From positions 75,364,261 to 75,428,260 of the forward strand of contig OY740769.1 in assembly GCA_963513935.1 (NCBI GenBank): a DNA stretch of 64,000 nt. The letters are read 5' to 3'. The stretch comes from Aphrophora alni. Its lineage: Eukaryota; Arthropoda; Insecta; Hemiptera; Aphrophoridae. The notes below the pieces were generated by a model. It saw only the letters and a list, made by a program, of their open reading frames with translations. It did not search any database and had not been told where the DNA came from. The translations under genes and the position numbers were made by a program. Within the stretch, counting starts at the first letter, position 1. Each line of letters opens with the position of its first letter. Shown here one piece after another: positions 6,923-62,774 of this stretch.

Positions 6923-6954
6923 AAATATTAGGTTATGAAAAAAAGTGAGCCACG

Positions 6955-8937: not shown

Positions 8938-8939
8938 CA

Positions 8940-11447: not shown

Positions 11448-13440
11448 CATTTTGTAGCAACAGCGAAAACTGAAGAAAACACGAACACACTAAAATTACA
11501 ACTAGTTTGTTCAATTCAGGAGACACAACTGAGCACCAGCTCAAGATAAGAGAGAGGGAAAACATACAGGCGCTTGGATTTAATGTGGGAATATACCACA
11601 ATTTAATCACCAATTGTTCGACAATATAATTTTCTCTTCCATGAAACGCGTAGGTTGTTTTTAGGTTTTTAACAATTAATTACTGAAATTTAGAGAACTG
11701 GACGAGAGAAAAGGAATTATTGCAATTATTCGAGAGATGGCGAATAAAACATCTGTTTTACGTCTAAAGACTGCGTTTAAGAAAAATGTGAACACTGTCT
11801 AATTTTTGAAATTAAACATGGGTTGACAAGCGTCTCCACTTCCCTCCCCCAAGAGGATATAGTTGGGATAGTATCTATATGTTACAGACCCACATATTTC
11901 ATTCCCGAATCCAATAGTTTATGTAAGATAACTTCATACCTGTTTTCAAATAATCCTCAGTTTCACAAATATAATAAACGCATTTTACATCTCTAGAAAG
12001 AAAACGAAGCTACTTATCAAAATATTTCAAATAATAAAATACTTAAAAAATTAGTTGATCCATAGAAATAGTTATTTATTTCAATGAAACATGATTCATT
12101 TTATGAAAACGGATTCTTACTTTCTAAATTCAAAATCTTTACAATGATTTAGTTTCATTAATTTCATAAATAACAAATATATAGCAATTTGATTTTCTAC
12201 ATTAATTCCTCCCCTATTATTGTAAAGCTGCAAACTGTGGAACCCTCCAACGTTTGCATATTTTATGGAATTTCTATAACGAATAACCTGGTCTTTGATT
12301 TTGATTCAGTTTGGTAGATACTAGAGTTGTAAAAAGTTACAGTTGTAAACTTCTATACCTTCCTTCAATTCGGGTTGGTGAAGTTATGTTTTATGTCAAA
12401 ACAGTCATTCTTTGAAATAAAAAATACTCTATTGACTCTCAAAAGTTATTAAGTCTTACCAGTACTTTTGGATGATGTGTATAAAATATAAGTATAAAAA
12501 ATATGGTCTAGACGTACGTATAAGCCAGTTAATAAGAAATATTGAATGTTTATTTATAAAAGTTTGTGTACAGTTTTTCATATAGAAAAGTAATTACACG
12601 CAATTTCAACCGATATAACTTTATAACCTACAAAAGTAAAGGACATTTCATTTCCTCGAAATTGGCTTCATTTCACTACTGTGTGTAAATTAAAACTGAG
12701 TGCTTCAATTGTGACTTCAGTAATAATTTCCTTAAATTTGACAACATTTCTTTGTAATCAAAATACAAACGAAATAAATAATTTTTCAGAATTTACTATA
12801 TTTAACATTTATAAAATTTTAACGAAAACTTGTAGAACGTGGAGAAAGTTATGAAATATCTTCACCGATCCCCGTCTAATCTTAAACACTTAAAATTGAG
12901 AAGAGCTTGATGTGGTGGGGACAACGGATATAAATAAAATACTAGGTTATGATACGTTGTTTTAGTTTTGAAACGCAATTCAAAATTATTTTCACAAAAC
13001 ATGGACCTGGTTTAGTTTTACCTGACATAATATTATTAAGGAAATACTCTCTAAGAAATACAGTTTTTTATTAATTTCCTTTAAAAAAATACCCAAAAGT
13101 GTAAGACAACCTTTTGGGAGGCCAAATGCTTTCAACAGAGATAATTTGGTTACTATCTACAACTTAAAGTTGAAAGTTTATTTTGTCATCTAAAGCGATT
13201 CACTGCAATAAAACGTTTAGTGAATTTCAATGACAACTTACTCCAGCCTTTCAGTGCTGAATTACTTGTACTCTTGATCAAAAATGCATACTCATTAACA
13301 TTCTTCGTGAAGACGACATGAAAGGCGCCTGACTTTCTAAAATAAAATATCATTCCAATTCAGACACTTCTTCTGTTTTAAGAACAACAAAATTAAAATT
13401 AAACTCGAACGCAATTTCTTACAGATAGAGTAATTAAATC
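11448..13440. other. AT-rich intergenic DNA
   Basis: No gene or clear element found. The first 150 bp (GAGCACCAGCTCAAGATAAG and similar) are slightly richer in GC and may be what remains of the transcribed or repeat sequence into which the LTR element inserted. Confidence 0.4.
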
Positions 13441-13475
13441 AAACGCGTTTCAACTGATAATGCCGCCATTTTCAG
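13441..13475 (-). ncRNA. Hammerhead-like motif, degenerate (PLE terminal-repeat fragment)
   Basis: On the minus strand CTGAAAA is followed by a GGCGGC region, a short loop and GAAACGCGTTTGATT. The conserved G of CTGANGA is A here, so the ribozyme core is broken. The flanks (AATCAAACGCG on one side, GCTACAATAA with CTATAACTCA on the other) match the right arm of the palindrome at 42.0 kb, so this is another copy of that family. Confidence 0.45.
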
Positions 13476-16423
13476 TGACAGATCTGCTACAATAATCAAA
13501 CTATAACTCACTGTATTTATTGATTTAGTTTCCTTTTTAGAAATATAATATTTAACGATTCAAGAGTTGTGTACTAGCTAGCTCCCTAATCAGTCTGGAT
13601 GTATGATGTCACATACAAATAAAACATTTGACAACCATAACTATCCACTTTAGACGTAAATACCTAGTACCACAGAACGGGTATTTGTTACTACACATGG
13701 AATTATCCCTCATAGATAATTGTTGGTAATATTAATTAAACTAAATATAACGTTTTAGATTGACAAACGCCAAAATCCTTCTTTTTTATTAATACCTAAA
13801 ATCTCAAAATCAATCGTGTTAAGAATAAGCTTCTTTTCTACATTATAGCATTAAATTAGTTTCATTCCTTTGTTTATATTATTGAGTTATTACATAAGAA
13901 AATTGTTAGAGAAAGGAACAAATTATATACAGCCTATTTGCAAAATATTTTAGAAGATATAATATTTTATTATTAATAATAAAAGGACTAAGACTTACTA
14001 CAATGATTTTTAAATTAAGACTGATTTAACTGACATATAAAAACAGTTATTTTACAACATTACCAAGGAAATATAAAATAATATAGTTTTGGAAAAATAT
14101 GCTATTTATTCACATTTTAAACAATACCCTAAAAATATATTGAATAATAAATTTAATTTTGGATTCAACTGGATGTATGATACAATGATAACATTATCAA
14201 AAACAAGCAGTAGTATGATCTATTCTCTACTTCAACCAACCGGCCATTAGTAAAACAAATATAGCCACAAACAGATATATCCTGGAATAAAAAAGAAATA
14301 TAAATAAAACAATTCTATTGATTTAAATTTAAGTTTTAACGTTTGACATGTACATTGTTGTACATAATTTATTATGATAGTATGTGTTGTAACAGTGTGA
14401 TGTGACTAAATGTAATGTGATTCAAGCTTAATAATGGCACCGGCAAGTGGCGAAACAGATATCGCAAGAAAATAACAAGGCCTGCAGTAGACTTATAAGA
14501 TAAGTAAATGAAAACTAAAGATATTGTTAAGATGAAGTGAAAATACCATTTTCAGATGTGAGAAAGTGATTTAGCTAGGTTTCGATTTAGTTTGGTCATT
14601 AAAAAAGTTAAGGAACCAGATTTAATTTTGAGAGATAATAATAAAATAAAAATGAGGATCATACTTACTAACAAAAAGCGATATACGAAGCACCAATACA
14701 AGAATAAATCTATGGTAATAGATTGCAATTTCGTATTGTGTAGGCCACCTCGCAAATGAAATGACAAATTTGCCCATACAAATTACCTGTACGATTAGCG
14801 TCATCACTCCATAACTGAAGGCTGTGTTATATTGAAATTGAAAATATCAGACTTTAAAGAATTATAAATAAATAATTAGTTGTTGCTTTACCAATAATTT
14901 AATTATAAAATAAATTAGAATTATGAATAATTTATATAATTAAAAAATAATATAAGGATACAGGTAATGCACGTTTGATTGATGTTTTCAAACGGGTATT
15001 TAGAATCTCTCGCTAAATTAAAAAAAAAAAATCTAAATTATTTGTTGAAATATTCGCTCTCACCGTCCTACCTAATCTGTTATTTGCGAAAAAAAAAATG
15101 AAAAGTTTAAAATAAACTATTTTTTCATTACACACACTAGTTGACGATGGGCGTTAAGAATTGAAGAAATCTTTACAGCCATCTTAGCGACAGATAAATT
15201 ATTATTCTTAATTAATTCCTGTACTGTGATATTATTCATGTAATTAAATACTATTAATAAAACTAATATTATTAAAGAAACAGTTCTTGAATTTTTGTAA
15301 TTATTATTTTGAAAATGGACCAAGGGATTTAGTTAAAATGTGATCAGTTTAGAATTTTACGGTGAAAAAGTAGATATTAACAAAGTCCTCACGTTGGGAA
15401 AACTCATTTAAATAACTACTAGGTTAAGAACTTTACACAATCGACCATATTGAGAGCCAACAAAACTTTTCTCATTCGGTATTCCATTCACTTTATTCTT
15501 TTGACAATAAAACAATGTCACTTAGATTAGTTACGCTCAGAATAATCTTGAAAAATGAAGGTAAATATTTGTCTGTGTGCTAAATATCTACATATTAAAG
15601 GCTTAAAATCTGTTCTGTAGCTTTTTTAAGTGAAATAAAACAATATTTTTTCAACTTTTCTTATCGTACCGTGATATATTACGGCCGTATTAATCATCAA
15701 CATTATGTTAAGTGTTCTATATTTAGGATTATTAAAATTTTGTTGCAACATTTTGTATTATATTGCAAACAAAAAACTAATGTTTGTCTTAGTGGGTCAT
15801 CTTAATTATTAATCTTGATGATTTGACTTAATATTATAATCTAACACTTAACACACCAAATTACACATTTTGTTTGCCGTCAATCCTCCTTTACCGAGCA
15901 ATGATTGGTCTTTCGGGTACTATTAGTAATAAAACAAACATTCAATCAAATTTACAATATTTCACCATGATTAATGAATCGTCCTTGCCAGAGAGTAAAG
16001 GATTGAAAATAGATTCCTTGAAGTTAATATTGCGAGATTCACGATTTACCGACTTTACGAAGACAACATTTAGCACTTTATTTTATTATGAATTATATAT
16101 TTATGTAAACACATTAAGACATATACTAAACTTGTTTCAGTAAATGTTTGCCTTAGGTAATATCTCTTTTAAAGGGTTCTTTTTTGGGACACGTGATATG
16201 GTACGAATAAGATATGAAGTATCAATAGGTGGTATCTCAAAAACAAATATATTTAAGAGAAATTATTTAATTTGCAAGTAAGAGAACTAGATTCCCAAGA
16301 ATGTACATATATTGAACATGATGTTATTAGCTTCAAAGAATGCAATATTATAATAAATGGGTAGTACAGTAATTACATTTTTTCTCACCGTCAAGCACAA
16401 TAAATATAGCCTGTCGGATTATC
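13476..16423. other. AT-rich intergenic DNA
   Basis: No gene supported. Short minus-strand frames near 14.6-14.8 and 15.1-15.3 kb lack motifs and follow AT-rich composition. Confidence 0.4.
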
Positions 16424-16453
16424 GGTTTCGGTGGTTCATGCCACCATCATCAG
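16424..16453 (-). ncRNA. Hammerhead-like motif with intact CTGATGA core
   Basis: Minus strand reads CTGATGA, one T, a GGTGG stem, a six-base loop, CCACC, then GAAACC. The core bases CUGANGA and GAAA are complete and the stem is perfect apart from the single extra T shared with other copies. The flanking CGCG palindrome seen elsewhere is absent. Confidence 0.5.
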
Positions 16454-19400: not shown

Positions 19401-20029
19401 TTTTATTTTTTATGGATGAAAAACTAAAACTAAAAATAATCAAGCTACAAAGTGCAAAACTAAATCACTGAAGGAAGATAGTAGTGAAAAAAACATGAAA
19501 TCAATCCAGTTTTTAGGGATAGGACATTTTCTGATTTTTGTATGTATTAGGTAAATAGGTATATCCGAATAAACAGTTATCATATTTTTATTATTTTATA
19601 AATTATACATGGAGTCTGTTAACTTTGAAAATCAAGACTTTAAGATGTCAGAATTCTCTATGAAACAGTCTCACCTAATAAAACGGTTTTTAGGAAATTA
19701 TTTTTATGTGTATTTTATTCATCAACCATAATTAATTATCTCATTCTTATTACAATATTTTATTAATTTGATATAAAAGGAAACATATTTTAAATAAATT
19801 ATTTTAGAAATATATTTATAAACTAATTTGTATAATGTATACTATAAAGGTTAAACAGTAATGTAAAAAGGGGAAAAAAATCCTTTTATAGACTCTAAGA
19901 AAAGTGTACTTAATTAAGATTAATTATATAGAACACTATCTCTCTAGCTCCTAAAAACACCCCCTTTCACTTGTAATAAATAAATAGTAAAATATTCGCT
20001 ATGAGTTACTGATTTGAAAAACTGAGTAA
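16454..20029. other. AT-rich intergenic DNA upstream of the LRR gene
   Basis: No coding exon is supported. Any non-coding first exon of the LRR gene should lie here, but I cannot place it. An 80-codon minus-strand frame (16910-16668) lies about 215 bp upstream, in sense, of the motif at 16424-16453. That spacing resembles the PLE remnant near 43.6 kb, but its sequence shows no PLE motif. Confidence 0.4.
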
Positions 20030-20045
20030 ATTTTGTTTGTTATAG
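20030..20045 (+). promoter_or_regulatory. Probable splice acceptor before the LRR gene start codon
   Basis: AATTTTGTTTGTTATAG is T-rich, ends in AG and sits one base before the ATG at 20047. This suggests a non-coding upstream exon; no donor could be assigned. Confidence 0.5.
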
Positions 20046-20046
20046 G

Positions 20047-20643
20047 ATGCTGCAGGCCTCCGTACTACTCTTCTTAGTCAACGCTGTCCTGTGTGTTTGT
20101 CCGCCCGACTGTCTTTGTATTGTTGATGATAAAAACCGTCGACAGATCTTATGTACTAAAGGCGCTATGATGGATCCAATCCCCACTGCGTACATGGATC
20201 CCCAGCTTCAAGTTATACACATATCAGCACCTTCGAAAAATAAAAATCACTTGACCATTGGACCGGTTTTCCAAAATTTCTCCCGCCTAGAACAGCTTCA
20301 AATCACTTACTCCAATATTCCAACGATAGGAAGACATTCTTTCTGGGGCGTCCCTACATTGAGAAAACTTAACTTGTCACATAATAATATAACACAACTT
20401 CTAGAAAACAATTTTCGAGGATTGATAAACCTTCTGGAGCTTTATTTGGATTATAACAGGATAGAATCTATGACCAGCGGGACTTTTAGACATCTTCCAG
20501 AACTCATGGTCTTGTCTCTGACAAGAAACAGAATATCCGAATTAGCTCCTAGACTGTTCCTTGGCCTTGGAAAACTACATCAATTTTATCTATCTGGTAA
20601 CGCTGTCGAAGAGTTAAACACCGATGTCTTTAAGGATGTACAG
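20047..20643 (+). CDS. LRR single-pass membrane protein, coding exon 1 (residues 1-199)
   Basis: The whole gene encodes 575 residues from two coding exons (20047-20643 and 23997-25127). Exon 1 starts MLQASVLLFLVNAVLC, a signal peptide, directly followed by an LRR N-terminal cap with cysteines 18, 22, 24 and 36. Six LRRs of the xLxxLxLxxNxI type follow, most of exactly 24 residues, the sixth ending at the exon junction. The family acts at the cell surface in adhesion, guidance or receptor roles; which of these applies here cannot be told. I do not recognise a specific orthologue. The exon ends with CAG at 20641-20643, followed by GCAAGA. A GT donor six bases earlier (GAT|GTACAG) would keep frame but shorten one LRR to 22 residues. 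The frame runs on only to 20715. Confidence 0.9.
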
Positions 20644-20780
20644 GCAAGAAAATGGGGATATCTTATTTTAAGGATTATTGTAAATATTTTGGGGTTAAAT
20701 AGAAGCCCATTTTGAGACACAAAAATAGTTCAATTTAAGGGTCCAGAGAGAGGAAAATGTTAGGTAATAGGGAAAACTAG

Positions 20781-20870
20781 TATAACCTAAGCTAATCTAA
20801 CCTACCCAACCTAAACTAATCTAACCTACCCTGACCTAATCTAGTCTAATGTGTCGTAATCTAACATAGT
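20781..20870. repeat. Degenerate CCTAA-type pentamer run
   Basis: Repeated words TAACCTAA, CTAATCTAACC, TACCCAACC and CTAACC. The underlying unit is CCTAA, the complement of the insect telomere repeat TTAGG, but the phase drifts and no long perfect array exists. Confidence 0.5.
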
Positions 20871-21019
20871 TTCTTCTTTACCTAAGCTAAGTTGGAATCT
20901 TTACTAGCCAACACCAGGAATCGATAATGTGGGTTTCTTAACCACTTTAACCTCTACTTTGCTATTGAGACTACACCGGAGACGGTTTCCTCCATAAACA
21001 CAGTCTAAGTATCTATAGT

Positions 21020-21900
21020 CTGCCTTTACTTTGGTCTATTGATGATCTTACTTCTTTTAAACTCGTCGTATTGTTCCTCTTCCTGAATTAGAACGGAGAT
21101 AATAAAACTATCACATACTGGCCAAAACGTTCTAAAATAAGTTGATTGGTTGCGTCCACCGAGCACAACTATTCCTTGTTCGCTTGCCATTTCACACAGT
21201 AGAAAAACTTGTAAACAACTGATAATATCTAAGATAATGTCTAAACTCACTGTGCCTAGTGAGCAATTTAATAGTTGGGTGTTATATTAATTTACTTCTC
21301 CCAACTTACGAAAAATTCATATCCTCAGGTCCCGTATCGATCTTTAAGTCCAGTTAATCGTTCCATAGTCGACAATATCACATTTGTTGCCATATTTATA
21401 TCTATTGTCTCATTTCTGATGCCAACGATGACTACTGTACAAGTCATGATCAAATTTGTATAGTAAACTATTTCCAGAAATCTTATAGATTTTATCGTAG
21501 TGATATGCAGATCCCCTTCAATATTTCTACATCCTGGTATCTCAGTTTTCTGAGATGCGAGGTTCAGTATATTTATATCTAGCCATTCGCTTATTATCGC
21601 TACTGATCTCAGTCAAGGATGTCTCGGTCACAGGGATTATTCACCATGTCCGCCACAGTAGTATTCTCCGCGAATTATACCAGTTCATTTAGAGCATCTC
21701 GCTCTCCCCTATCAGCACTTTTCAGGTAACTTGTAACGATACTGATTAATTCGAAACTCTTCAATCCTACAGTTCCTTTATGATGCCATCTTTATTAAGA
21801 ACATGTTTACAGCCACTATTTTAAGACCAATATTTTGCCAGTTTCTACCTCATGCTAGTTTAACTCAACCGTCTCTGCTTCATAAACAATTGCCTTGCAG
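21020..21900 (-). other. Intronic minus-strand coding-like stretch, origin unknown
   Basis: Composition is more balanced than the rest of the intron. Successive minus-strand segments look coding: one near 21790-21690 (SFELISIVTSYLKSADRGE, then RDALNELV) and one at 21250-21026 (CEMASEQGIVVLGGRNQSTY, then a WPVCDSF stretch). Stops and frame changes separate them. This is compatible with a decayed insertion, such as a transposon or endogenous viral element, but I recognise no family. Confidence 0.25.
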
Positions 21901-22054
21901 TCTTTAAGGGATGCGGAACACACACCAGCAAGAGAGCTCTCAGCTTGCCGCAGATAATTTTATATGTCTGTCAGTCCCCAGACATATTATTTATCTAGAT
22001 TCGCCCACAACCGCCTCCAGTCTCTGTACTTAGAGATAACTTAATAAAATTCAA

Positions 22055-22460
22055 CGTAACTTAACCTACTTAAACCTAGCCTAGCTTAACGTAATTTAAT
22101 GAAAATAAATTGACCGAACCTAGTTTATCTCGTCTTAACTTAAAATAAATTCTTTTAGGAACTTTACTGTGTTTAATCTAACTATAATTAACATAGCACA
22201 GCCAATCTAACCTAACATAACATAGCCTGTTATTCTGTTTAGCCTAATCTAACCTACCCTAGAAAAACCTTACCTAACTTATTCTATATAGCCTAGCCTT
22301 TTTTAGGTTTTTCAATCACACCTGGTCATTTTAAAGTCCATGGGGAAATATTCCACGAGTAACATCTCTTAAGCATATTCAATTTTTCTCATAGTCTACG
22401 TTTGTCTAATCTAACTTAGCTAAACATAATCTAGCCTAATCTAACCTAACAAAATGGTCG
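22055..22460. repeat. Degenerate CCTAA-type pentamer run, second block
   Basis: TTAACCTACTTAAACCTAGCC, CTAACCTAACATAACATAGCC and TAATCTAACCTAAC words recur over 400 bp, mixed with unrelated sequence. The two blocks bracket the coding-like stretch at 21020-21900. Confidence 0.45.
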
Positions 22461-23996
22461 GTTAAAATATTGACTGAATCTGGATGTGTACTGTGATGTT
22501 TGATAAAACAGTAAACTCTGCTTCTAACTATTTTATGGTTAAAGCTTTGAACTTAAATTACAATTTAATTTTCTGAAAAGGTCCAAAACCATTGTTATTG
22601 TGTTTCTTCATGTCGGGTTGTTTTTAATAAACAATGATGGAACGAAAACAAAATGTAAGTGTGTAACATCGATGAGTAAAAAGGAAAGTACCAAACATAC
22701 AGAATAAAACACACGAATACCCCAGCTGATTAAATTAGTTAAATATGGTATAGGATAAGGATTTTAGAAGTAATTTTAAGTTTTATATTTACAAAACAAC
22801 TTTACTACAAAGTATAATTTACAAATATATTATATTACATATATACTTTGATAATATTTTTTTTGGTCAAGTGAAGCCAAAATATGAACTAACACAAGAA
22901 GAACATATGGCAAACTAGCAGGTCTGCTGATTTCTCTAAGACTAAATTTAACTGATTTGTAGGATAATTAGGTTTTAACTTAATCAATAGGATCTCACAG
23001 AAGACAAATTTAATAATTATGAGCTTATTTATAACTATTTTTTAGTTATTATTAAACATTAATAATGTATGCCAAATTCGAGTCCTCCGCCTCATAGCTA
23101 AAGATATATGTTAACACGAATGTATGGTTCAATACAAAACTAGATAATCGGTAAAGAATAGACGGCAATAACAACTTTTAAAACTAATAAAAGCGCATGT
23201 TTTCGTGGATAGATGAAAATTATGAAATCATGTTTTTTACTGGTACTACTATAGTATAATACCTTTCTTAAGTTTTTGATACCGTTGTTAAACGTTGGTT
23301 GAAAAGTAAGTTATTGATTGACTTTTCAAAATGCCTCCGTTATTTTTAAGATGGGGGGGGAGGGGGACATACATCGTGCTATACGATATCTTAGCCTTAC
23401 AAAGATTACAAAGGAAAAGCAAATTAAAAAGGAAAATATTAAAATCATTTTTTTTTACATTTAAAATTGCTAATCAAACTGTTTGTAAAACAGTAGATTT
23501 TTATGAACTTTGGTTTTTACAGCGAGATTTTTCAAGATTTCAATCTCAATTAGATATGGCATGAAGTCTAATATTCATTCTATGTTAAAAATGTCTCTTT
23601 TAATAATACATCAATAAATGTGACTATAAAGTGATAATAGAGGAAGGCAAAATACGTTGTATTTTTGAACTAGAATATGCTGCTTAAAATGTTTGTACAA
23701 TTTTAGAAGCTGAAATATTTAAAAATAAAGTATAATTTTTATTAAACTGAATGACCAGCCTGTAAGAAATGTTTGCATTGCAACGTACACGATTTTTAAA
23801 TATGATTAATATTACAATTTAGTGATCATCAAAAGTCTGTTCCAAGTGAATGAAAAAAGAAATCTAAAGTTAGGATAATAGGAACAACGCCCTAGGAAAC
23901 TCGTTATGATCCAACAATAACACACTTTATATATATAAAAAAAAATCAATTATATAAATCGACAAAAATAACTTTAAGGTTTATTTTTGATTTCAG

Positions 23997-25127
23997 GAAT
24001 TGCTTGTATTCAAATGTCGAGATTGTGGTTTAAAGAATATCAACTCTCATCTCTACAGCTTGCTGACGTCACTCATCCATCTAGATCTTGGTGAAAACAA
24101 GTTCAAGTACATCTCTTCAGACGAGTTCCGAGGTCTTCGGAGGCTAAAAGTCCTCCACCTGGATGGCAACCAACTTCCGGTGATCCTTGAAGGAACATTT
24201 AGTGGTCAAAGTACTCCAAACTTGCAGACCCTTATTCTGTCTAGGAACAGACTAGCTAAAGTTACCGCAGCTGCTTTTATAAATCTCACAACATTAGTTG
24301 AACTCAATCTAAGTTATAATAAATTGGACATAATTGAAACATCAACATGTATACCACTGGCTGAATCACTGAGAAGTTTAGACATTAGTGGTAATAATAT
24401 ACCCGTAGTAGAGTTCAAATACGTTCTTCAGGTGTTAGTGAATTTGAAGAATTTATCAATAGCCGATATGTCCCTAGGAAGGAGTGATATACCGTGGGGA
24501 ATTTTTATATATTTAGAAAATTTAGCGTTTCTTAATTTGTCGGGAAATCATTTTATGTCTGTTCCCGAACAGCTTTTAGTTCCTCTTCCAAATTTAAAAG
24601 AACTCGATTTATCTCGAAATAACTTGCAAGGTTTGAGTGAACGGTTGTTGAGAAGACTAGAACGAGTGCCGATGTTACATCTGGAGAAGAACCCTTGGAC
24701 GTGTGTTCATTGCCACATTGATTGGATGTTAAGTGTTGTTAAACAAAACTTTTATATAAGGAACGTGGTATGTGCCATGCCGTACTCTATTCGAGGAAGG
24801 ACTTTAGGTTCTCTCGGTAAAACTCCAATAGAATGGTGCAGTAACGGGTTAGACTACGGCGACGAAGGTGTTGCTGGACTCACTTCTGCTGAAGAGTCTC
24901 AGTTTGGTATCATAACTGGTAGTGCTATTACCGCTATAGTTATTGTATCAGTTACTGTTATTATATTTTGTGTTATATATGCTCGTAATAAGGGAGGAAC
25001 GGAACGTATACCGACACAAGAACTGCAGACCCGAGGTTGTGAAACTGAAATCACAAAAAAAGTAACAGTGTCCACTATAGATGAACTTGCCAGTCAACAA
25101 GAAATTTCAGGAGAAACATCTAGTTGA
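23997..25127 (+). CDS. LRR single-pass membrane protein, coding exon 2 (residues 200-575)
   Basis: Opens with GAA TTG CTT, completing the LRR begun in exon 1. About nine more LRRs follow, several with the NLS/DLS-x-N signature (LNLSYNKL, LNLSGNHF, LDLSRNNL). The LRR C-terminal cap starts at NPWTC (residues 431-435) and carries the C-x2-C-H-x-DW pattern typical of LRRCT. A membrane segment spans about 504-527 (IITGSAITAIVIVSVTVIIF), followed by the stop-transfer residues RNK and a cytoplasmic tail of about 45 residues with no recognised kinase, TIR or Ig domain. The absence of Ig domains separates it from Kekkon-type proteins. The stop is TGA at 25125-25127. Confidence 0.92.
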   Translation, partial: ELLVFKCRDCGLKNINSHLYSLLTSLIHLDLGENKFKYISSDEFRGLRRLKVLHLDGNQLPVILEGTFSGQSTPNLQTLILSRNRLAKVTAAAFINLTTLVELNLSYNKLDIIETSTCIPLAESLRSLDISGNNIPVVEFKYVLQVLVNLKNLSIADMSLGRSDIPWGIFIYLENLAFLNLSGNHFMSVPEQLLVPLPNLKELDLSRNNLQGLSERLLRRLERVPMLHLEKNPWTCVHCHIDWMLSVVKQNFYIRNVVCAMPYSIRGRTLGSLGKTPIEWCSNGLDYGDEGVAGLTSAEESQFGIITGSAITAIVIVSVTVIIFCVIYARNKGGTERIPTQELQTRGCETEITKKVTVSTIDELASQQEISGETSS

Positions 25128-30781: not shown

Positions 30782-32059
30782 CTAAATATTTAGAGTTTTC
30801 TCATAACAATTATTATACTCTGCAGCAAATTCGAGTTTGTTCATATACTGGTATAAATGATTAAGAGTTTGATTAGACTTTTTCAAAAGTTGTACAAAAC
30901 AATCAAACACATCCCATGCAGCTTGGCCTGCGTCTTTTATGACACTAATTCCCGGACAATATCCATTAATCACCATTTCATATAAATTATTGAACGATCT
31001 GATTATGGTAGTTAAATATTGATTTATTTCATTACGTACCTTCACAATTGGCAAAGAACTTTGTGTTTCTTTCTTACCCGCTCTAAGTACATCTTCTAAT
31101 ATTTTAATTAACATATCCACGTCTGTAATATTGTTCACAGGCCTGACGTATTTTAAAGCAAAATCTTCTAAGTCCCAAAATGGGAACCTATTATAAGGTG
31201 ACACAATTATACTTGTTACATTTAATATGTTTTTAATAACTGTCACATAATCACAATTACTTTCAATGTTTATGGGTTGTTTTATTTTGTTCAGAACATA
31301 TTGTAAAATGTTTATTATAATTTTTCCACTTTTTAATAAATTTTCAGAACGCCAATAATTGTGTTCTTTTTCTCTCACTGTTGTAACCTCCTGGTACAGA
31401 GTTACTAGTTTGGTTATGTAGTATTCTTTTACTTGTTGGACGGTCAAGGTACGGTTTAAAGTGTCAAAAGCTTCTTTTGATGCTCTACGTGCATTATTTA
31501 GAAAATCCCATCTTTTTACTTTACTGAGTGTTTCAATCTCTTCTGATAAAGTTTTGACAGTGACCTTCAGATCATCCAAGGGTGTTTTGAATAGATTTAT
31601 TTCAATTTTTAAACAAGAAGAATATTTAAGTTTATCAACACAAGGGTCGCAATTGTATGTGGAAAGCACTTTCGTCTCATTATGAGAAAAATAATTGTAA
31701 ATATTTGTAAGAATATATTTAGCTTGACGAGTGGAGTCCGAATATTTATTATAGACGTTCACTAAAGAGTCATGGTATTTACTTAATTTGCTTTTTTCGG
31801 TTGTAATAATGTTTTTAATGTCTTTTGTTTCATTAAGAATTCGCATTTTAACTTTAAATTTGTTTTCTATGTCGGCAAAGTCATTATTATATTTTTTTAT
31901 TAAATTGAAATAAGGTTCCGTGTAATCTTCATAGAAAATATTAAATATATCAATAAAATATTCAATCAAATTTTCTAATTCAGTTTTGTACTGAAGCTTC
32001 TGCTGTCGTGCATCTCGGGCTATGACGTCACACGAGTCTAGCTGCGCCTCAGTAAGCCC
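30782..32059 (-). CDS. Secreted helical glycoprotein of unknown function, coding exon 2
   Basis: Residues 19-443 of a 443-residue predicted protein. The exon begins GLTEAQLDSCD directly after the acceptor TTATTGTTACAG and ends with TAG at 30782-30784. The product is rich in K, N, I, L and E, with long predicted amphipathic or coiled-coil helices and no further membrane segment. Six N-glycosylation sequons are visible: NETK, NETK, NRTL, NVTS, NITD and NQTL. Cysteines are sparse and mostly grouped (NCDPC, SSC, NCDY, GYCPG, FDCF, NNCY), suggesting a few disulfides. I recognise no domain. With a signal peptide it should be secreted; a haemolymph, salivary or venom-type protein is possible but unproven. 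The uninterrupted 425-codon frame in AT-rich DNA makes it real. Confidence 0.85.
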   Translation of the reverse strand, partial: GLTEAQLDSCDVIARDARQQKLQYKTELENLIEYFIDIFNIFYEDYTEPYFNLIKKYNNDFADIENKFKVKMRILNETKDIKNIITTEKSKLSKYHDSLVNVYNKYSDSTRQAKYILTNIYNYFSHNETKVLSTYNCDPCVDKLKYSSCLKIEINLFKTPLDDLKVTVKTLSEEIETLSKVKRWDFLNNARRASKEAFDTLNRTLTVQQVKEYYITKLVTLYQEVTTVREKEHNYWRSENLLKSGKIIINILQYVLNKIKQPINIESNCDYVTVIKNILNVTSIIVSPYNRFPFWDLEDFALKYVRPVNNITDVDMLIKILEDVLRAGKKETQSSLPIVKVRNEINQYLTTIIRSFNNLYEMVINGYCPGISVIKDAGQAAWDVFDCFVQLLKKSNQTLNHLYQYMNKLEFAAEYNNCYEKTLNI

Positions 32060-33259
32060 CTGTAACAATAACACACAGTTAGAGATACATTTTGTTCTTA
32101 ATATTATTAGGCATATTTTTTATATCACATGTCTCCACATTTCATCGTAAAATCGTTAGAAATAACTTTTTTACGTTTTGGATTTGGCAATTTTTTGTCA
32201 ATATATAAAATTTAAATTATTTTAAAAGTAGGTTATTTACATACACTAAATAGTCATTAATTACCACCACTACAAAAATAAGTGTGTTAAATTTTTGTTT
32301 TCTGTGCTATTGAAAATAAACTATCAATTCACACAATTTTCAACCTCCATTAGTTTTTAGGTGAACCCTCAACAAACCTGCCTCAGGTTGGATGGAATTA
32401 TTCGCGTGACACTACGCTCGTATAATACCTGCTTATTAAGTTTTGTTCAAATAAAGTTTAAGTTATACATCTTGTCTGATACGCCGACATTAAAGGAAGT
32501 GAAAATATTTTGATATTTTTATGTATCTGCTAATTTTTTTGACCTCAAAATTGGTAGCGACATATGCACAGTTCCAGTTTCATTAAATGTAGGTAAGTGA
32601 AAATTAATATTGTTGCGATCACCTTTATGGAAATCCCGACACACTAGACAATAAAATGTTTACCTATTACGTTAATTTGGCTCAATTTTGGGCTTACCAT
32701 TTATTGCGTTCTAAAGGTTGAATTTGGTATCAGTTTTTATTAAAATTTTGTTTCATAAGCGCGGTTTTACAAACTTTTGAACAAGATTATTCATGCGCAA
32801 AATAATTTGGTAGATTTTAAAATGGTTGCTGATTTTCAAATTTCGCTTGGTCGGTCGCGAATAGTGGAGGGTCACTGTAAATGAACAGTTAATTGTGGTA
32901 GGTGACGTTGTTGTTAGAATGCAATTACAAAGAAGGCAAATTAAACAAATTTTATTTTTGTATTAGTGATATCTAAAACAAACATATTTATTTGTTTATA
33001 TAATGACTATTATTTAGTGTAAATAATCTGTTACTTTCCTGTAAATGACAAAAGGGTTCAGGATTGAATATATCTTATCAGCTTTATTACTATTTTGGTG
33101 GAAAACAACGCCCACATTAAAAACTGTTCAACATTGGACCACCATTTCTTCTGTGACACACTGTGAAGTCTAAAGACAGACAAATATTATTCCGAAAACA
33201 CTTTATTAGACTCTATCATAATTTAAAATTAATATAATACTAAATTAAATATAACTTAC
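32060..33259 (-). other. Intron of the secreted-protein gene
   Basis: A 1200-bp phase-0 intron with donor CTG|GTAAGT and acceptor TTGTTACAG|GGG on the minus strand. No other feature is seen inside. Confidence 0.85.
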
Positions 33260-39846: not shown

Positions 39847-42026
39847 TGACTGCTATATTTATTTATTTTATTTAACCATTAACCCCTTTATCTTAAAAAC
39901 AAATATCTCTCATTTATAATAAATCGTACAAAATTCATTTAAACCATTTAAACCATTTATGGTTATGGTTAGGCATTAGATAAAACTTATTCCTTATAAT
40001 ATCAAATAAAATGTATTCTTGATAATGCCTTTATAATATTTGTATTTGTTTATTTTATTCTAAAGGTTCATCAATGATTAAATAGTTTTCTTCTTCTACA
40101 AAGTATGAAGCATGACCTAACATTCTCAATATAGTTCACAGTATTGAATTAATATAATAGTTTTAATATACGCAGAATTTTCAATTTGTGTATCCTTTGG
40201 TACTTAAAATCATTTTTATAAATATCTTTGAAATGGGTGTAATAGTAAATTAGAAATTGACAACTTTTAGTAGAATGAGCGTCATTCACTGAAAGTAGTG
40301 TCACAATTAAAATGTAAAAAGTTATCTTAACAAGAATATGAATATGTTTATAATTATCTTTTTTATGCATAAGCAATATTTTTAAACGCTTTTCGGTTTT
40401 ATTCCATAGTCATTAAACATAAACACAACCAATTAAAAAAATAATAAACGGCAGAAAACAAACATACACACAAATAAAACAATACAATTAATTAATATGA
40501 AAGTCACTTGCCCTACCTCGTGGACTTTCGATAAGACTCTAAAAAATATTGATGGGCCATAATAAAAATATTTATAAACCTATTTGTATAATATATCAAT
40601 CAATCAAGAATCAGAAGCGTTAGAATATATTATAACAATATATTTGTTATAATATCTGGTGAAATCACACATTTTAATTAATAATACTACAGTATGTTGT
40701 TTCAACAACACGTCTTGTTACAGATATAAAAAATTAATTAAATAATAAATTATTTATTAAACAGACGTAAATTAAATAATAAATTTTAACCAACTGTAAA
40801 GAAGGGGATACAACAAGCATATTATAAAAAAATAAAACCATCTTTAAATCTGTGGAAACAGGGCGAGTGTACTCTAAAATGGCGCGAGTTAAAATAAATT
40901 CCAATTCCCAACATTGTTATAATATTATGCTGTCGTACAACTTCAAGATTTCAAAGTGACTTTAATGTCTCGTATTTTGTAAGAAAATTGTAAATTTGTT
41001 TTTATTGTATAAATCTTATCGTTCATGTATTTGAAGTATTATTCATATTTAAAAATGTTGAATATATTTAAGAAATGTACTGTTTAAAATCATTAAAAAA
41101 ACATATCTCATTTTCCCTTAGACAATTGAAGCAACTTGATATGACCAAATGAAAGAAGACGTCTAATTTAGAAATAACAATTTTATTCTAAAATAAATTG
41201 TATAAATTACATTTTGAAGTAGATTTGAAGGATTGATGTTCTTTTAAGAAATAGAATCAAACAATACAATTGTCTAATTAATTTACTTTTATAAGTATAC
41301 AGATTAAAGAGACTTTGTAAATTTCAAAATCTATATCATTTAGAAGCTTTAAAGCCACAAATTAGTTAAAATACTTATAGTTAGCTAAATTTTAATGTTA
41401 ATTTTTATATTTTCCTACTTCATCAATTCATATTAGTTTAACAAGGTTGTAGAAAAGATGACACTCCACGTAGGAAAATCATTACAATTTATTATGTTGT
41501 ACAACCTCTTCCCCATCAAACATAAGTCTTTAGTGTTTAGGTAAATTCAATGGTTAGTGCAATCACTTTCATGTAATTAAAACTGATATACGGCAATCTT
41601 AGCTAGGTATATTTATTTAAAACAAGAAAACGTCTAACTTAAATACAAAATAAACATTAATACCAATTTTTCATTTTCTATATATTTTATGAATTGCTAT
41701 ATTTAGTCAACTCAACTGTAGCTTTAAAACGTGGGATGCACTCAAAAATTAAATACGTGGGATGCAGCTGACATTATAAGACGCAAATTCCGTTTATTAT
41801 TTTTCGTAAATCCGTACATAAAATTCGCTTGCCAATTTGTGCTAATATATGCACATCGTCAAATTTCACAAACTGATATATAATATCTTGAAGCAGATAC
41901 TAAATATTAAGCAGAAACTATGAAAACGTAACGAATTCATTTTTATATTTTGGATTTTTAAAGTAACATTATAATCACCAATTAGTAAAACCTAACATAA
42001 ATTTTAGTTTAGATATTTGTTAGATA
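39847..42026. other. AT-rich intergenic DNA
   Basis: No gene or recognisable repeat family found. Confidence 0.45.
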
Positions 42027-42080
42027 GAACAAAACTTGAATATAAGTTCTCACAAAAATTCGTTTACTTAATCAAACGCA

Positions 42081-42106
42081 TTTCAACGACAAAGTCGCCA
42101 TCCTCA
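42081..42106 (-). ncRNA. Hammerhead-like motif, left arm copy
   Basis: Minus strand CTGAGGA, T, a GGCGAC stem, TTT loop, GTCGTT, then GAAATGCG. One base change destroys the ACGCGT palindrome kept in the right arm. Confidence 0.5.
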
Positions 42107-42180
42107 GTGATACATACGCTACAATAAACTCATGACTTCATAATATGAGTTATAGTTTAGTTATTGTAGCTTATGTATCA

Positions 42181-42212
42181 CTGAGGATGGCGACTTTGTC
42201 GTTGAAACGCGT
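42181..42212 (+). ncRNA. Hammerhead-like motif, right arm copy
   Basis: CTGAGGA, T, GGCGAC, TTT, GTCGTT, GAAACGCGT. The six-pair stem includes two G-T pairs. The self-complementary ACGCGT would form a minimal helix III or a dimer interface. Confidence 0.55.
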
Positions 42213-42944
42213 TTGATTAAGTAAACGTATTTTGTGAGAACTTGTGTTCTAGTTTTATTCTATTTATTTATCCTACATGTAAAGCTTAACATTTATTTAT
42301 TGATATTTGTTGTTAACATTTTGATTTTTTATTAATACTTAACTTACCTTTTTTATCTTAGAAAACAAGTTTGAGCAACCTTAGATGGTGTTTCATATAC
42401 GAGTAACATATTTTTGTATAGTTTTGAGCTATATCTAAAACTTAATGTATGTTTTTAATACCCAACCTTTTCTACTACAGTAAAGAACCTGACACTTCAG
42501 TAATTCCGTGTAGAGGAGAATACTCGTTCTAATCCCACTGTGCCATTTTGTATGAGAATATGAATATTTACAAAGAACACAATTAATTACGTTTTGAAGG
42601 TAGTATTCAAAAAGTAACTTAAACACAAATAATTTGCTAAAGATTGTGTTAAACCAACATATACGTTATTTTTAATATTGTTTGTAAATAAAATTGTTTT
42701 ATAGCCAACTAATATTTAAAGGAAAAACAGAATGGTGACAATATTCAGAGTTTTGAAAGATTTATAAATATCTATTTCCTCAGTGAAAAAGCTGATAAAT
42801 TATTTAAACTTTCTGGCAATGTAATGTGTTAATAACTGTTATAACATATGAAAAGTCGTTACACAGGCTCACGAAGACATTATATGAGTGAGTGAAGTTA
42901 GTTTCTGTTAAGCAAATTTTTCTCGCTCATTATCAAATTTGTCT

Positions 42945-43630
42945 GTAAAACAAAAAATGGCGGCCTATAACAGTTTTGTACACCGTCTTTATCCATACCA
43001 CTCGATAAAACGGATTTCAAAGAAAAGTTAAACGTCATTAAATATATCGCCCAGGCAAATGGACATAGAAGCCAAATGGTCGACAAATTATTGGAAAGGC
43101 AAAATTAGCAAAAAAATGTAACACTATACAGACTAGCGTAGACAAAAAGAAATATGTCGCTGCTGATTACACTGAAATAATGCCCTCCATCCTAAAAAAT
43201 GCACTCCAAAAACATAACATCATTGTCACACACCGAACTAATAATAGCGTACAAAAAATACTGCTTAAAAAACAGGAAATACCAACAGAGAAGAAGTCAG
43301 GCATCTAAAAAATATCGTGTGACGACTGCGATTTGCGATTGTTTTTACATCGGACAAACAGGCAGATCGTTCATGGAGAGATACAAAGAACACTTGCCCA
43401 ATAATAGCCTGTACGCTAATAGATCAAGTTTCGCGCAACACATTATCGATAACAAACACTCGTATACAAATTTTGAATCTAACCTGACACCACTCCACAT
43501 CAGTAGAAAAGGACCAATGATGAACGCCATTGAAGAAGATGAAATATACAAAGCATTAAACAATCGCCAAATGACATTCTCAATGAAAAGTTATCGTTCC
43601 AATCAAACTCATTATTTGAGACGGCAATGA
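42945..43630 (+). pseudogene. Penelope-like retroelement remnant (linker and GIY-YIG endonuclease)
   Basis: The C-terminal part of a PLE protein. From about 42960 the plus strand reads NSFVHRLYPYHS in one frame; from 43029 NVIKYIAQANGHRSQMVDKL in another; and from about 43145 VAADYTEIMPSILKNALQKH, then IIVTHRTNNSVQKIL. The frame 43199-43630 gives the endonuclease: CDCFYIGQTGRSFMERYKEH, then SSFAQHIIDNKHSY, and an acidic IEEDEIYK helix ending near QTHYLRRQ. YIG and the downstream R and H residues fit GIY-YIG nucleases of PLEs, which nick target DNA for reverse transcription. At least two frame changes and a stop show it is dead. The RT domain upstream is missing (5' truncation). ATG 43199 is not a true start. 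Confidence 0.85.
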
Positions 43631-43827
43631 GATATATAACTAACTAATATGACCAACCCGTAATCTGATAACCTTGGCCTCACCGTGATGCCAGTAGTTC
43701 GCGGACCATGAAACTGTGTGCACGTAAGAAAGTGTTTAAATCAATGTATACGTGTATATATTTGTGTGTATAGTGTTTATGTTTTTGTTAAGTTTAATGT
43801 TTTGACGACCTCTACGGAGTTAAATTA

Positions 43828-43858
43828 CTGAAGATGGAGCTACGACTCCGAAACGCGT
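43828..43858 (+). ncRNA. Hammerhead-like motif in the PLE 3' terminal region
   Basis: CTGAAGA, T, GGAG stem, six-base loop, CTCC, GAAACGCGT. It lies 198 bp after the PLE stop codon in the same orientation, where PLE terminal repeats and their reported hammerhead ribozymes occur. The core is complete except for one unpaired T after CTGAAGA. Confidence 0.6.
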
Positions 43859-44630
43859 CTTTGTAATAAGAAAAATGCAAAGTCACATGACTGTACTATA
43901 AAGGTAATAAAAATAAAATAATTTATTACTCATTATATTATATAAAGTGACTTGAACACCAAACAATGAACATTAAATAATGTTAAAATATGAGTTAGGC
44001 TTATCAAAACCTTCCTTTTAATTATAAATTAAGAAATAAAATTTTACAAGTTAATTTTTCTTTTTTAAAATCTATAAATCTTTGAAGTAGATCTTAGATG
44101 TCTGCTAAAATATGTGTTGCATCTTAAATTTTTTCTGTAATAGGAAAAATTACTATAAAATAAGAAGGTATAATACTCACACTCTACATTAAATATCTGT
44201 TCATATAAAATAATTACGAAAGTAAATCTTTCATTAGTTGACTTTATTATAGGGAAATTACTCTCTAATTAGAATAAATATGGTATAATAATTGTAGCCA
44301 ACTAAGCTTAACATTGAAAGAGTTCATGTACTAGTGAAATAAGGATATAAATCAAATAGTGTTGGAAACAATAAAAAATAAATCAATTTATATATACTTT
44401 GTGAATTGTCTATACTGGTGTCATTTTGAGAATTAAATGTAATATGATGTCTCCCAATTACATAACATAATTTTAAAAATAATTTTCGCCAGAAACTAAA
44501 ATAATCTAAAAAGAAAATAATATTGATTTAGTAAAAATATCTTTAAAATTAATTAAATGAAAATGAAATTTTCAATCCGATATAACTGTTAAAGTTCTTT
44601 CATATATCTTCTATAATTTTCTGAGTGAGT

Positions 44631-55243: not shown

Positions 55244-55427
55244 TTTTAAATAAAATTAAAACAACAATTTTTTACTATCAACCACAATGTTTTAATAGAA
55301 ACTTGCCGACCATGGTTTCGCTAGTTAAAGCATTGTCAAGGACTTATACAAGAAATGATGGTCGGCAAGTTTCTATTAAAACATTGTGGTTGATACTAAA
55401 AAATTGTTGTTTTAATTTTATTTAAAA
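55244..55427. repeat. Inverted repeat, 70-bp arms, 44-bp spacer
   Basis: Arms 55244-55313 and 55358-55427 are complementary with one visible mismatch (ACTATC against GATAC). The spacer holds a CTTGANAA...GAAAC motif on the minus strand. Confidence 0.92.
55314..55340 (-). ncRNA. CTTGANAA...GCGAAAC motif in palindrome spacer
   Basis: Minus strand CTTGACAATGCT, TTAACT, AGCGAAACC. AGC/GCT can pair. It has the same layout as 47243-47280, placed at the centre of a long inverted repeat. Confidence 0.3.
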
Positions 55428-62466: not shown

Positions 62467-62479
62467 AGACTACTTTCTA
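62467..62479. repeat. 13-bp direct repeat, left (possible target duplication)
   Basis: AGACTACTTTCTA, repeated exactly at 62762-62774. Confidence 0.65.
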
Positions 62480-62574
62480 TATTAAATGTTGAGCTTGACT
62501 TATGAGAAAAACTATACAGTATAACAAACACACAGAACACAATTCTCATAAAAAAAAATACGCCTAAGTATCAG

Positions 62575-62606
62575 ACGCGTTTCAACGACAAGGTCGTCCT
62601 CTTCAG
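62575..62606 (-). ncRNA. Hammerhead-like motif, left arm
   Basis: Minus strand CTGAAGA, G, a GACGAC stem, CTT loop, GTCGTT, GAAACGCGT. The core and six-pair stem are intact. Confidence 0.55.
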
Positions 62607-62668
62607 TAATACACCAGCTACACCAACCAAACCTGAGTTGTGGTTTGGTTGGTGTAGCTGGTGTATCA

Positions 62669-62700
62669 CTGAAGAGGACGACCTTGTCGTTGAAACGCGT
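62669..62700 (+). ncRNA. Hammerhead-like motif, right arm
   Basis: Same motif as the left arm, reading outward on the plus strand: CTGAAGA, G, GACGAC, CTT, GTCGTT, GAAACGCGT. Confidence 0.55.
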
Positions 62701-62761
62701 CTGATACTTAGGCGTATTTTTTTTTTTATGAGAATTGTGTTCTGTGTGTTTGTTATACTGT

Positions 62762-62774
62762 AGACTACTTTCTA
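62762..62774. repeat. 13-bp direct repeat, right
   Basis: AGACTACTTTCTA, matching 62467-62479. Confidence 0.65.

Follow-up and report, generated by a model that had tools for sequence, protein, structure and literature searches.

A palindromic insertion with a one-sided tail

The window, that is the whole 64-kb stretch of Aphrophora alni DNA analysed here, contains a 282-bp unit (62480-62761) set between two copies of a 13-bp duplication, and this 13-mer, AGACTACTTTCTA, occurs only at these two places in the window (Table 1). The first-pass annotation had described a 282-bp palindrome with outward-facing hammerhead-like motifs in two nearly perfect arms, bracketed by a 13-bp direct repeat. 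The unit of this length, the bracketing repeat, the motifs (both strands carry CTGAAGA...GAAACGCGTC) and the arms, which are identical at 119/123 positions in a gapped alignment, were all recovered, but the palindrome proper covers only about 62515-62762, and 62480-62515 form an asymmetric 36-nt extension that is missing at the other end. This tail, the key mechanistic mark of the insertion, had been overlooked; it is homologous to the right end of a second element in the window (42022-42301).

We numbered the leader P1-P125 (from TTGAGTTGTGG to ACTGT, with P1-P5 being TTGAGTTG) and the tail P126-P161. Read on the minus strand, the window copy passes from the arm without tail through the joint into the other arm and the 36-nt tail; the joint has no filler, and the tail-bearing arm is 8 nt shorter at the centre. 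An inverted repeat of 106 nt (62528-62633 / 62642-62747) is 90% complementary and an outer one of 44 nt (62515-62558 / 62719-62762) 100% complementary, and folding the minus strand of the 282 nt gave z = -35.3, with 0/200 shuffles as good. On the minus strand of the palindrome family an open frame runs from an ATG in the arm, a putative start codon, through the tail; the older copy has GTG at this place.

Table 1. Positions of the palindromic insertions and related features in the window (dots mark features without strand)
Feature	Position	Strand	Remarks
Target-site duplication of window copy, left	62467..62479	.	AGACTACTTTCTA
36-nt tail, on one arm only (P126-P161)	62480..62515	-	sequence
Tail-bearing pLTR arm (P10-P125 of leader)	62516..62633	-	
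Hammerhead-like motif, tail-bearing arm	62568..62612	-	CTGAAGA...GAAACGCGTC at 62606; predicted cleavage after 62574
Palindrome centre, joint of the two copies	62630..62642	.	near 62633/62634
pLTR arm without tail (P2-P125)	62634..62761	+	
Hammerhead-like motif, arm without tail	62663..62707	+	CTGAAGA...GAAACGCGTC at 62669; predicted cleavage after 62701
Target-site duplication of window copy, right	62762..62774	.	AGACTACTTTCTA
Target-site duplication of second element, left (10 bp)	42012..42021	.	GATATTTGTT
Second element, older, same anatomy, 280 bp	42022..42301	+	motifs 42181 + / 42107 -; tail at right end
Target-site duplication of second element, right (10 bp)	42302..42311	.	GATATTTGTT
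5'-truncated PLE remnant, family B (approximate limits)	42960..43920	+	pLTR unlike that of the palindromes
Third copy, fragment of one arm	about 13438..13510	-	hammerhead core broken (CTGAAAA)

The second element is about 30% different from the window copy. At random places of the window, with a search area of equal size, chance repeats of at least 10 bp were found in 62/3000 cases and 13 bp was reached in 2/3000; because of these rates, the 10-bp duplication of the second element is only suggestive, and the 13-bp one of the window copy is stronger. The remnant of a Penelope-like element (PLE) of family B comprises RT-thumb remnants (by eye), a GIY-YIG frame (43196-43630), a hammerhead-like motif (43828-43859) and a pLTR, and its 3' end has 74-96% matches to PLE loci elsewhere in the genome.

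The window also carries a Gypsy-like LTR retroelement (6949-11093, plus strand), which uses two overlapping frames: one has a zinc knuckle and a portion of the RT, the second the remaining RT, RNase H and integrase. Pieces of a leucine-rich-repeat gene lie at 20026-25127 (plus strand); the second piece shares 92% identity with an unnamed protein and 51% with its best named relative, an acid-labile-subunit-like protein of Nilaparvata. A 445-aa open frame (30782-32119, minus strand) had no Pfam match at E 0.001. A hammerhead-like string, CTGATGATGGTGG...CCACCGAAAC, at 16385-16453 (minus strand) may be the pLTR of a further PLE family, and a short inverted repeat at 55284-55387, with a sub-gathering MIR169_2 match on both strands, is probably a small foldback element.

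The hammerhead-like motif

The motif occupies P31-P75, from stem I to stem I, and, as read from the sequence, combines the core CUGAAGA, GAAA and UC with a stem I and a stem II of 6 bp each. CUGAAGA and stem II are separated by one extra unpaired base, and helix III consists of a single A-U pair under a CGCG loop. The Rfam hammerhead models did not report the window motif at the gathering score or up to E = 1, and Rfam scans at the palindrome gave weak sub-gathering matches only, mostly to microRNA hairpins. The hammerhead is thus a putative one, identified by its core letters and the stems. PLE hammerheads are usually minimal and without helix III, according to the available part of a review (PMC6155905), so a reduced helix III and a miss by Rfam would be expected of a PLE motif. 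Scans of viral contigs gave 0 matches to the motif and 0 to inverted motif pairs.

The type I core (CUGANGA / GAA / UH) is intact in 76/80 arms, with 6/6 pairs in stem I in 75/80 and in stem II in 72/80. Substitutions are rarer in the hammerhead stems and core (29/3272) than in P92-125 (53/2709; Fisher p = 5e-4). This difference lends weak support to a constraint on the motif, since P12-30 is nearly as quiet (17/1446).

A high-copy family with one tail per two-armed insertion

The first-pass annotation had proposed a search for other copies genome-wide, and these were readily found. The arm 31-mer P54-P84 has 4306 exact occurrences in the 1.70-Gb genome, with 0 for a backwards control. A DNA search with the window copy gave 655 candidates, of which 40 (the window copy and 39 others) were scored and all 40 used; this set, chosen by similarity to the window copy, is near full-length (query 1-4 to 279-282) and 90-100% identical. 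The 36-nt tail is present on exactly one side in 40/40 copies. An exact duplication of 10-15 bp adjoins the ends in 30/40; among 800 flank pairings between different copies, repeats of at least 10 bp were found in 0.25% and of at least 8 bp in 1%. The remaining 10/40 copies have no duplication at that length, and one of them (L025) runs into N. The 30 targets with exact duplications are AT-rich and have a symmetric trend, AAC|W...W|GTT, in base counts taken without a control (C at -1 in 15/30, W as first duplicated base in 30/30, W as last in 27/30 and G thereafter in 14/30). Such symmetry is expected if one type of cut is made on each strand. Empty sites were not found among the sequences compared in this analysis, which counts against the mechanism proposed below.

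A further sample comprised 39 loci (L073-L111), the first distinct loci in list order among the first 100 of the 4306 places, all on contig C1; each locus needs one intact P54-P84 stretch, and L072, inside the sampled range, was left out. It contains 28 two-armed and 11 one-armed loci, with L084 counted as two-armed on a weak second arm of just 17 nt. Exactly one tail was found in 28/28 two-armed loci (27 by script and L076 by stricter alignment) and, by script, a tail in 2/11 one-armed loci. Duplications, with one mismatch allowed, flank 21/28 two-armed and 5/11 one-armed loci, compared with 4/585 flank pairings. Among the first 100 listed places of the arm 31-mer, neighbours were head-to-head in 13 cases, tail-to-tail in 0 and on the same strand in 2.

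Three PLE proteins compared by tblastn with L072-L111 matched nothing below E 0.5; the stretches measured about 630 bp each, except for 4.5 kb at L072. Because no RT and GIY-YIG ORF was found in the palindrome family sample (39 members, ~630-bp stretches), we refer to the palindromes as PLE-derived or PLE-mobilised and not as PLEs. Same-strand 31-mers 2.8 kb apart (at L072, and at L094 and L095) were considered as a tandem autonomous PLE, which was rejected: those of L072 belong to two further palindromes with one tail each, L094 and L095 are two-armed copies, and no PLE protein similarity was present. At L094 (G000:C1:8224397-8225027), the flank of the younger palindrome matches the older palindrome family, and apparently one was inserted beside or into the other.

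Outer ends are fixed and the centre is variable

Across the 40 copies the outer ends are nearly constant, and there are 39 different combinations of arm starts and filler. The arm without tail starts at P1-P3 in 35 copies, the tail arm anywhere from P1 to P27, and fillers measure 0-20 nt. The sole coincidence among the 40, which counts against the proposed mechanism, is a common filler and junction in L009 and L013, at different sites. The earlier suggestion that the structure was inserted as a unit does not agree with a centre that differs in nearly every copy. In the 39-locus sample, the start of the more complete arm lies at or before P5 in 36/39 loci and at or before P11 in 39/39, that of the less complete one anywhere from P2 to P116, and shortening affects the tail arm in 12 loci and the other arm in 10. 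Stretches between the arms measure 0-56 nt (27 of the 28 two-armed loci, L084 left out) and have common pieces of at most 11 nt, some of which resemble the arm's own first bases. A longer RNA reaching upstream of P1 was rejected, there being no common inter-arm sequence beyond these pieces; no resemblance was apparent by eye among the upstream flanks of the 11 one-armed loci.

Complete arms include the hammerhead, which was copied through, so the templates of such arms would have been uncleaved. Cutting of templates at the hammerhead as a rule was likewise rejected: one of 22 clearly shortened arms starts exactly at P70, and this start, in the tail arm of L108, lies directly after the predicted cleavage point and is counted against the proposed mechanism.

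Similarity is greater between the two arms of a copy than between arms taken from different copies. The mean distance within a copy is 0.0313, compared with 0.0361 for left and right arms of different copies (0/5000 permutations as low). Distances between copies are 0.0394 for left-left pairs, which is above the left-right value, and 0.0327 for right-right pairs, which is slightly below it and counts against the proposed mechanism. Since left-left and right-right distances on average are not below left-right ones, the sides do not form lineages, and no alignment column has a majority base that differs between left and right arms. Twelve variants occur in both arms of a copy: six are confined to a single copy, two variants account for four more (each in both L016 and L019), and one variant, in L013 and L021, for the remaining two. 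Arm distances, shared variants and the variable joint together suggest that both arms come from one RNA species and, so, that the palindrome is the product of the jump and not its template. Gene conversion between the arms could have contributed to the shared variants or be an alternative cause of them.

ORF-bearing PLEs of the same genome

PLEs abound in this genome: a PLE endonuclease search gave 18,560 first-look candidates, 150 of which were scored. PLE family A has ORFs of up to 840-841 aa with RT and GIY-YIG, and 2.77-kb tandem units. Among the first 100 of 272 exact matches to its pLTR, neighbours within 5 kb were head-to-head in 31 cases, tail-to-tail in 0 and on the same strand in 5. 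Head-to-head spacings range from 93 to 4574 bp, and 22/31 pairs include ORF sequence, as judged by a spacing of at least 405 bp, at which L121-L123 reach into the ORF. In 12 short pairs, picked because they were short, one end is about 40 nt longer than the other in 12/12, and a repeat of at least 11 bp lies near the ends in 11/12 (0/132 pairings). Seven of these repeats adjoin the matched end; the other 4 are 9-20 nt off, which counts against the proposed mechanism. A common arm start (reference 1222-1227), as expected of an RNA 5' end, is present in 5/12 short palindromes and absent from the other 7. Among 16 longer loci, chosen partly for showing pairs, a repeat of at least 11 bp was found in 12 (control 4/182 pairings) and one tail in 14 (by eye), the other two not being pLTR-bounded; the arms of the longer insertions are unequal. 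In family A the tail falls within the early part of the long open frame (by eye).

These patterns suggest that the ORF-bearing PLEs of this genome insert in the same way as the palindromes. Families A and B share with them head-to-head insertions, one tail of about 40 nt and duplications of 11-14 bp, and family A also has short palindromes consisting of leader only; in contrast to the palindromes, both families have RT and GIY-YIG reading frames and another pLTR, and A has tandem units. When the arms were compared with the terminal repeats of complete PLEs, as the first-pass annotation had proposed, no PLE with this pLTR appeared among 24 loci: blastn (E 0.001) with the palindrome pLTR gave no match in 23, and the 24th (L057) has an older palindrome next to its PLE. 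In one family A palindrome (L116, G000:C2:153087600-153088450), both arms start at reference 1352, with a 12-nt filler.

Bidirectional target-primed reverse transcription as the likely mode of insertion

Judged from these comparisons of sequence, the palindrome is likely to be a Penelope-like insertion without ORF, produced by bidirectional target-primed reverse transcription. In this scheme a PLE enzyme, probably dimeric, would make cuts 10-15 bp apart in the two strands of an AT-rich target, and both 3' ends would prime copies of one short PLE leader RNA, in which a pLTR of about 125 nt, including one hammerhead motif, precedes the tail. Copying would begin at the end of the pLTR on one side and 36 nt downstream of it, where the tail ends, on the other. 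One of the two copies would reach the RNA 5' end and the other be frozen wherever it stood. Joining of the two 3' ends, often with filler bases and presumably with the finished copy jumping to the unfinished one, would give the palindrome, and repair of the staggered cut would give the duplication.

The sequences themselves display fixed outer ends, one tail, duplications, head-to-head arms, a variable centre, a sharp inner limit and shared copy-private variants. We infer the order of events, the participation of two RNA molecules, the joining step and the correspondence of the inner limit to the RNA 5' end. Which PLE supplies the enzyme is likewise a conjecture, because no ORF-bearing element with the palindrome pLTR was found. 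The earlier impression of a non-autonomous insertion of two head-to-head terminal repeats, bracketed by a target-site duplication, is borne out, and PLE machinery remains the best candidate for its mobilisation.

In vitro, an Anolis PLE cuts and extends both strands, uses two internal RNA start sites whose interval is the tail, and takes uncleaved RNA as its main template (PMC11167929). The genome data fit this reaction with two additions, namely one start site per side and one copy that nearly always reaches the same inner limit. One discrepancy counts against the mechanism: start sites in vitro were no different for the two strands (PMC11167929), yet every two-armed copy examined here has unlike starts on its two sides.

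Four other origins were weighed against bidirectional synthesis. Self-priming, in which the end of a cDNA folds back and the cDNA serves as its own template, was proposed for PLEs from inverted-repeat junctions in Adineta vaga and, in the accessible part of that report (PMC3846280), is the published suggestion for inverted pLTRs. It would yield head-to-head arms with shared variants; a fold-back copy should, however, continue into the tail or end randomly, whereas the start of the second arm is fixed, 36 nt from that of the first, in 40/40 copies and directly adjoins the duplication. Moreover, the near-equal division of shortened arms (12 vs 10) means that neither arm is always the parent, and we regard self-priming as improbable. 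Perfect palindromes are unstable, and many fillers are short, as would be expected if palindrome-specific repair had shortened the centres of originally perfect palindromes after their insertion. Against such trimming, which we find distinctly improbable, stand the 39-locus sample, where losses of up to about 115 nt fall on one arm and the other almost always extends to the same few bases, and the head-to-head spacings of PLE family A, whose wide range does not amount to small revisions of one length.

Copying of the palindrome as a unit from palindromic RNA or DNA, in the manner of a foldback or MITE-like element, would account for the high copy number with fixed outer ends and for the common centre of L009 and L013. 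It is very improbable in view of the 39 arm-start and filler combinations, of left and right arms that neither differ in majority base nor are, on average, closer within a side than between sides, of the one-armed copies, some with duplications, and of the unequal arms of the longer PLE insertions. Palindromes are also a recognised hazard of assembly, and a fold-back artefact would be one way to obtain them. Thousands of exact arm matches, together with different flanks, duplications and a reproducible one-sided tail in the copies examined, already refute this for the family, and we give a fold-back artefact next to no probability.

How PLEs insert is debated, and published options include self-priming on an antisense template (PMC3846280, as far as its text was available) and extension of both strands, seen in vitro (PMC11167929). 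Thousands of minimal, mostly two-sided products provide a direct, countable record, in which each side has its own fixed start site, the inner limit is shared and the joint varies. This record argues for bidirectional target-primed synthesis. Inverted pLTRs and tails, which look optional, would then be the two ends of one reaction, and the coupling of one tail to each two-sided insertion becomes testable in the existing in vitro system.

Relation to known elements and origin of the RNA

The first-pass annotation knew of no named family with this layout, but a Penelope form of this kind has been described: in the part of the report available, Pen2a of Adineta vaga has an inverted pLTR head-to-head with a direct pLTR, a 31-bp tail and a 9-bp duplication (PMC3846280), and the available text of a curation guide mentions inverted pLTRs and 3' extensions (PMC8969392). 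Canonical PLEs have a hammerhead at the pLTR/ORF junction (PMC11167929). The palindromes resemble canonical EN-containing PLEs (Penelope/Poseidon type) in their inverted pLTRs, tail on one pLTR, duplication and hammerhead-like motif; head-to-head pLTRs were found in 28/39 loci, with a 36-nt tail on one pLTR and a duplication at AT-rich DNA. They differ from canonical PLEs in that the insert is leader only, without ORF similarity (39 members, ~630 bp), and in their thousands of copies. Our literature search, which was not exhaustive and is no proof of absence, recognised no published high-copy, ORF-less, leader-only palindromic PLE family.

Metazoan retrozymes, as described in the available part of one study (PMC7229834), carry type I hammerheads, measure 150-450 bp and have duplications of more than 4 bp, and the palindromes are similarly short, non-coding, hammerhead-bearing and mobile, with duplications of more than 4 bp. 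In contrast, retrozymes in that account are repeats (tandem in the axolotl) that give circular RNAs, whereas the palindromes have single or head-to-head arms with the motif copied through uncut. Direct tandem hammerhead repeats, which characterise retrozymes, were absent from the 39 sampled loci, each of which has one arm or two inverted ones.

The leader RNA may have one of two sources. The palindromes could be a by-product of the mRNA of an unseen autonomous PLE, or they could form a counterpart of SINEs for Penelope, that is, a self-maintaining ORF-less lineage with a borrowed PLE enzyme and two age classes in this genome (4306 exact arm matches of the younger and 4927 first-look candidates of the older family), in which the palindrome would be rebuilt from single-stranded RNA at every jump. 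On the latter reading, the strict one-tail rule would imply that a two-sided PLE insertion always engages two different RNA start sites, one per target strand, within one coupled complex. SINEs, like the palindromes, are short non-coding copies apparently reliant on the enzyme of another element; in the palindromes, as opposed to SINEs, copying starts inside the RNA and is two-sided. Minimal PLE RNA in vitro needs the first 172 nt of the ORF (PMC11167929), and the palindromes lack them, which favours the by-product reading. Most family A pairs include ORF sequence, compared with none in 39 loci of the palindrome family, and this speaks for a SINE-like lineage. On balance we hold such a lineage to be possible, if somewhat doubtful.

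For the older family, 40 of the candidates were scored, namely the second element of the window itself and 39 others at 82-87%, most of which match on both strands. At G000:C4:106842322-106842918 the inner part of the older palindrome (query 42-106 / 127-204) recurs in an array with a period of 77 bp, which looks like a tandem amplification of the palindrome centre.
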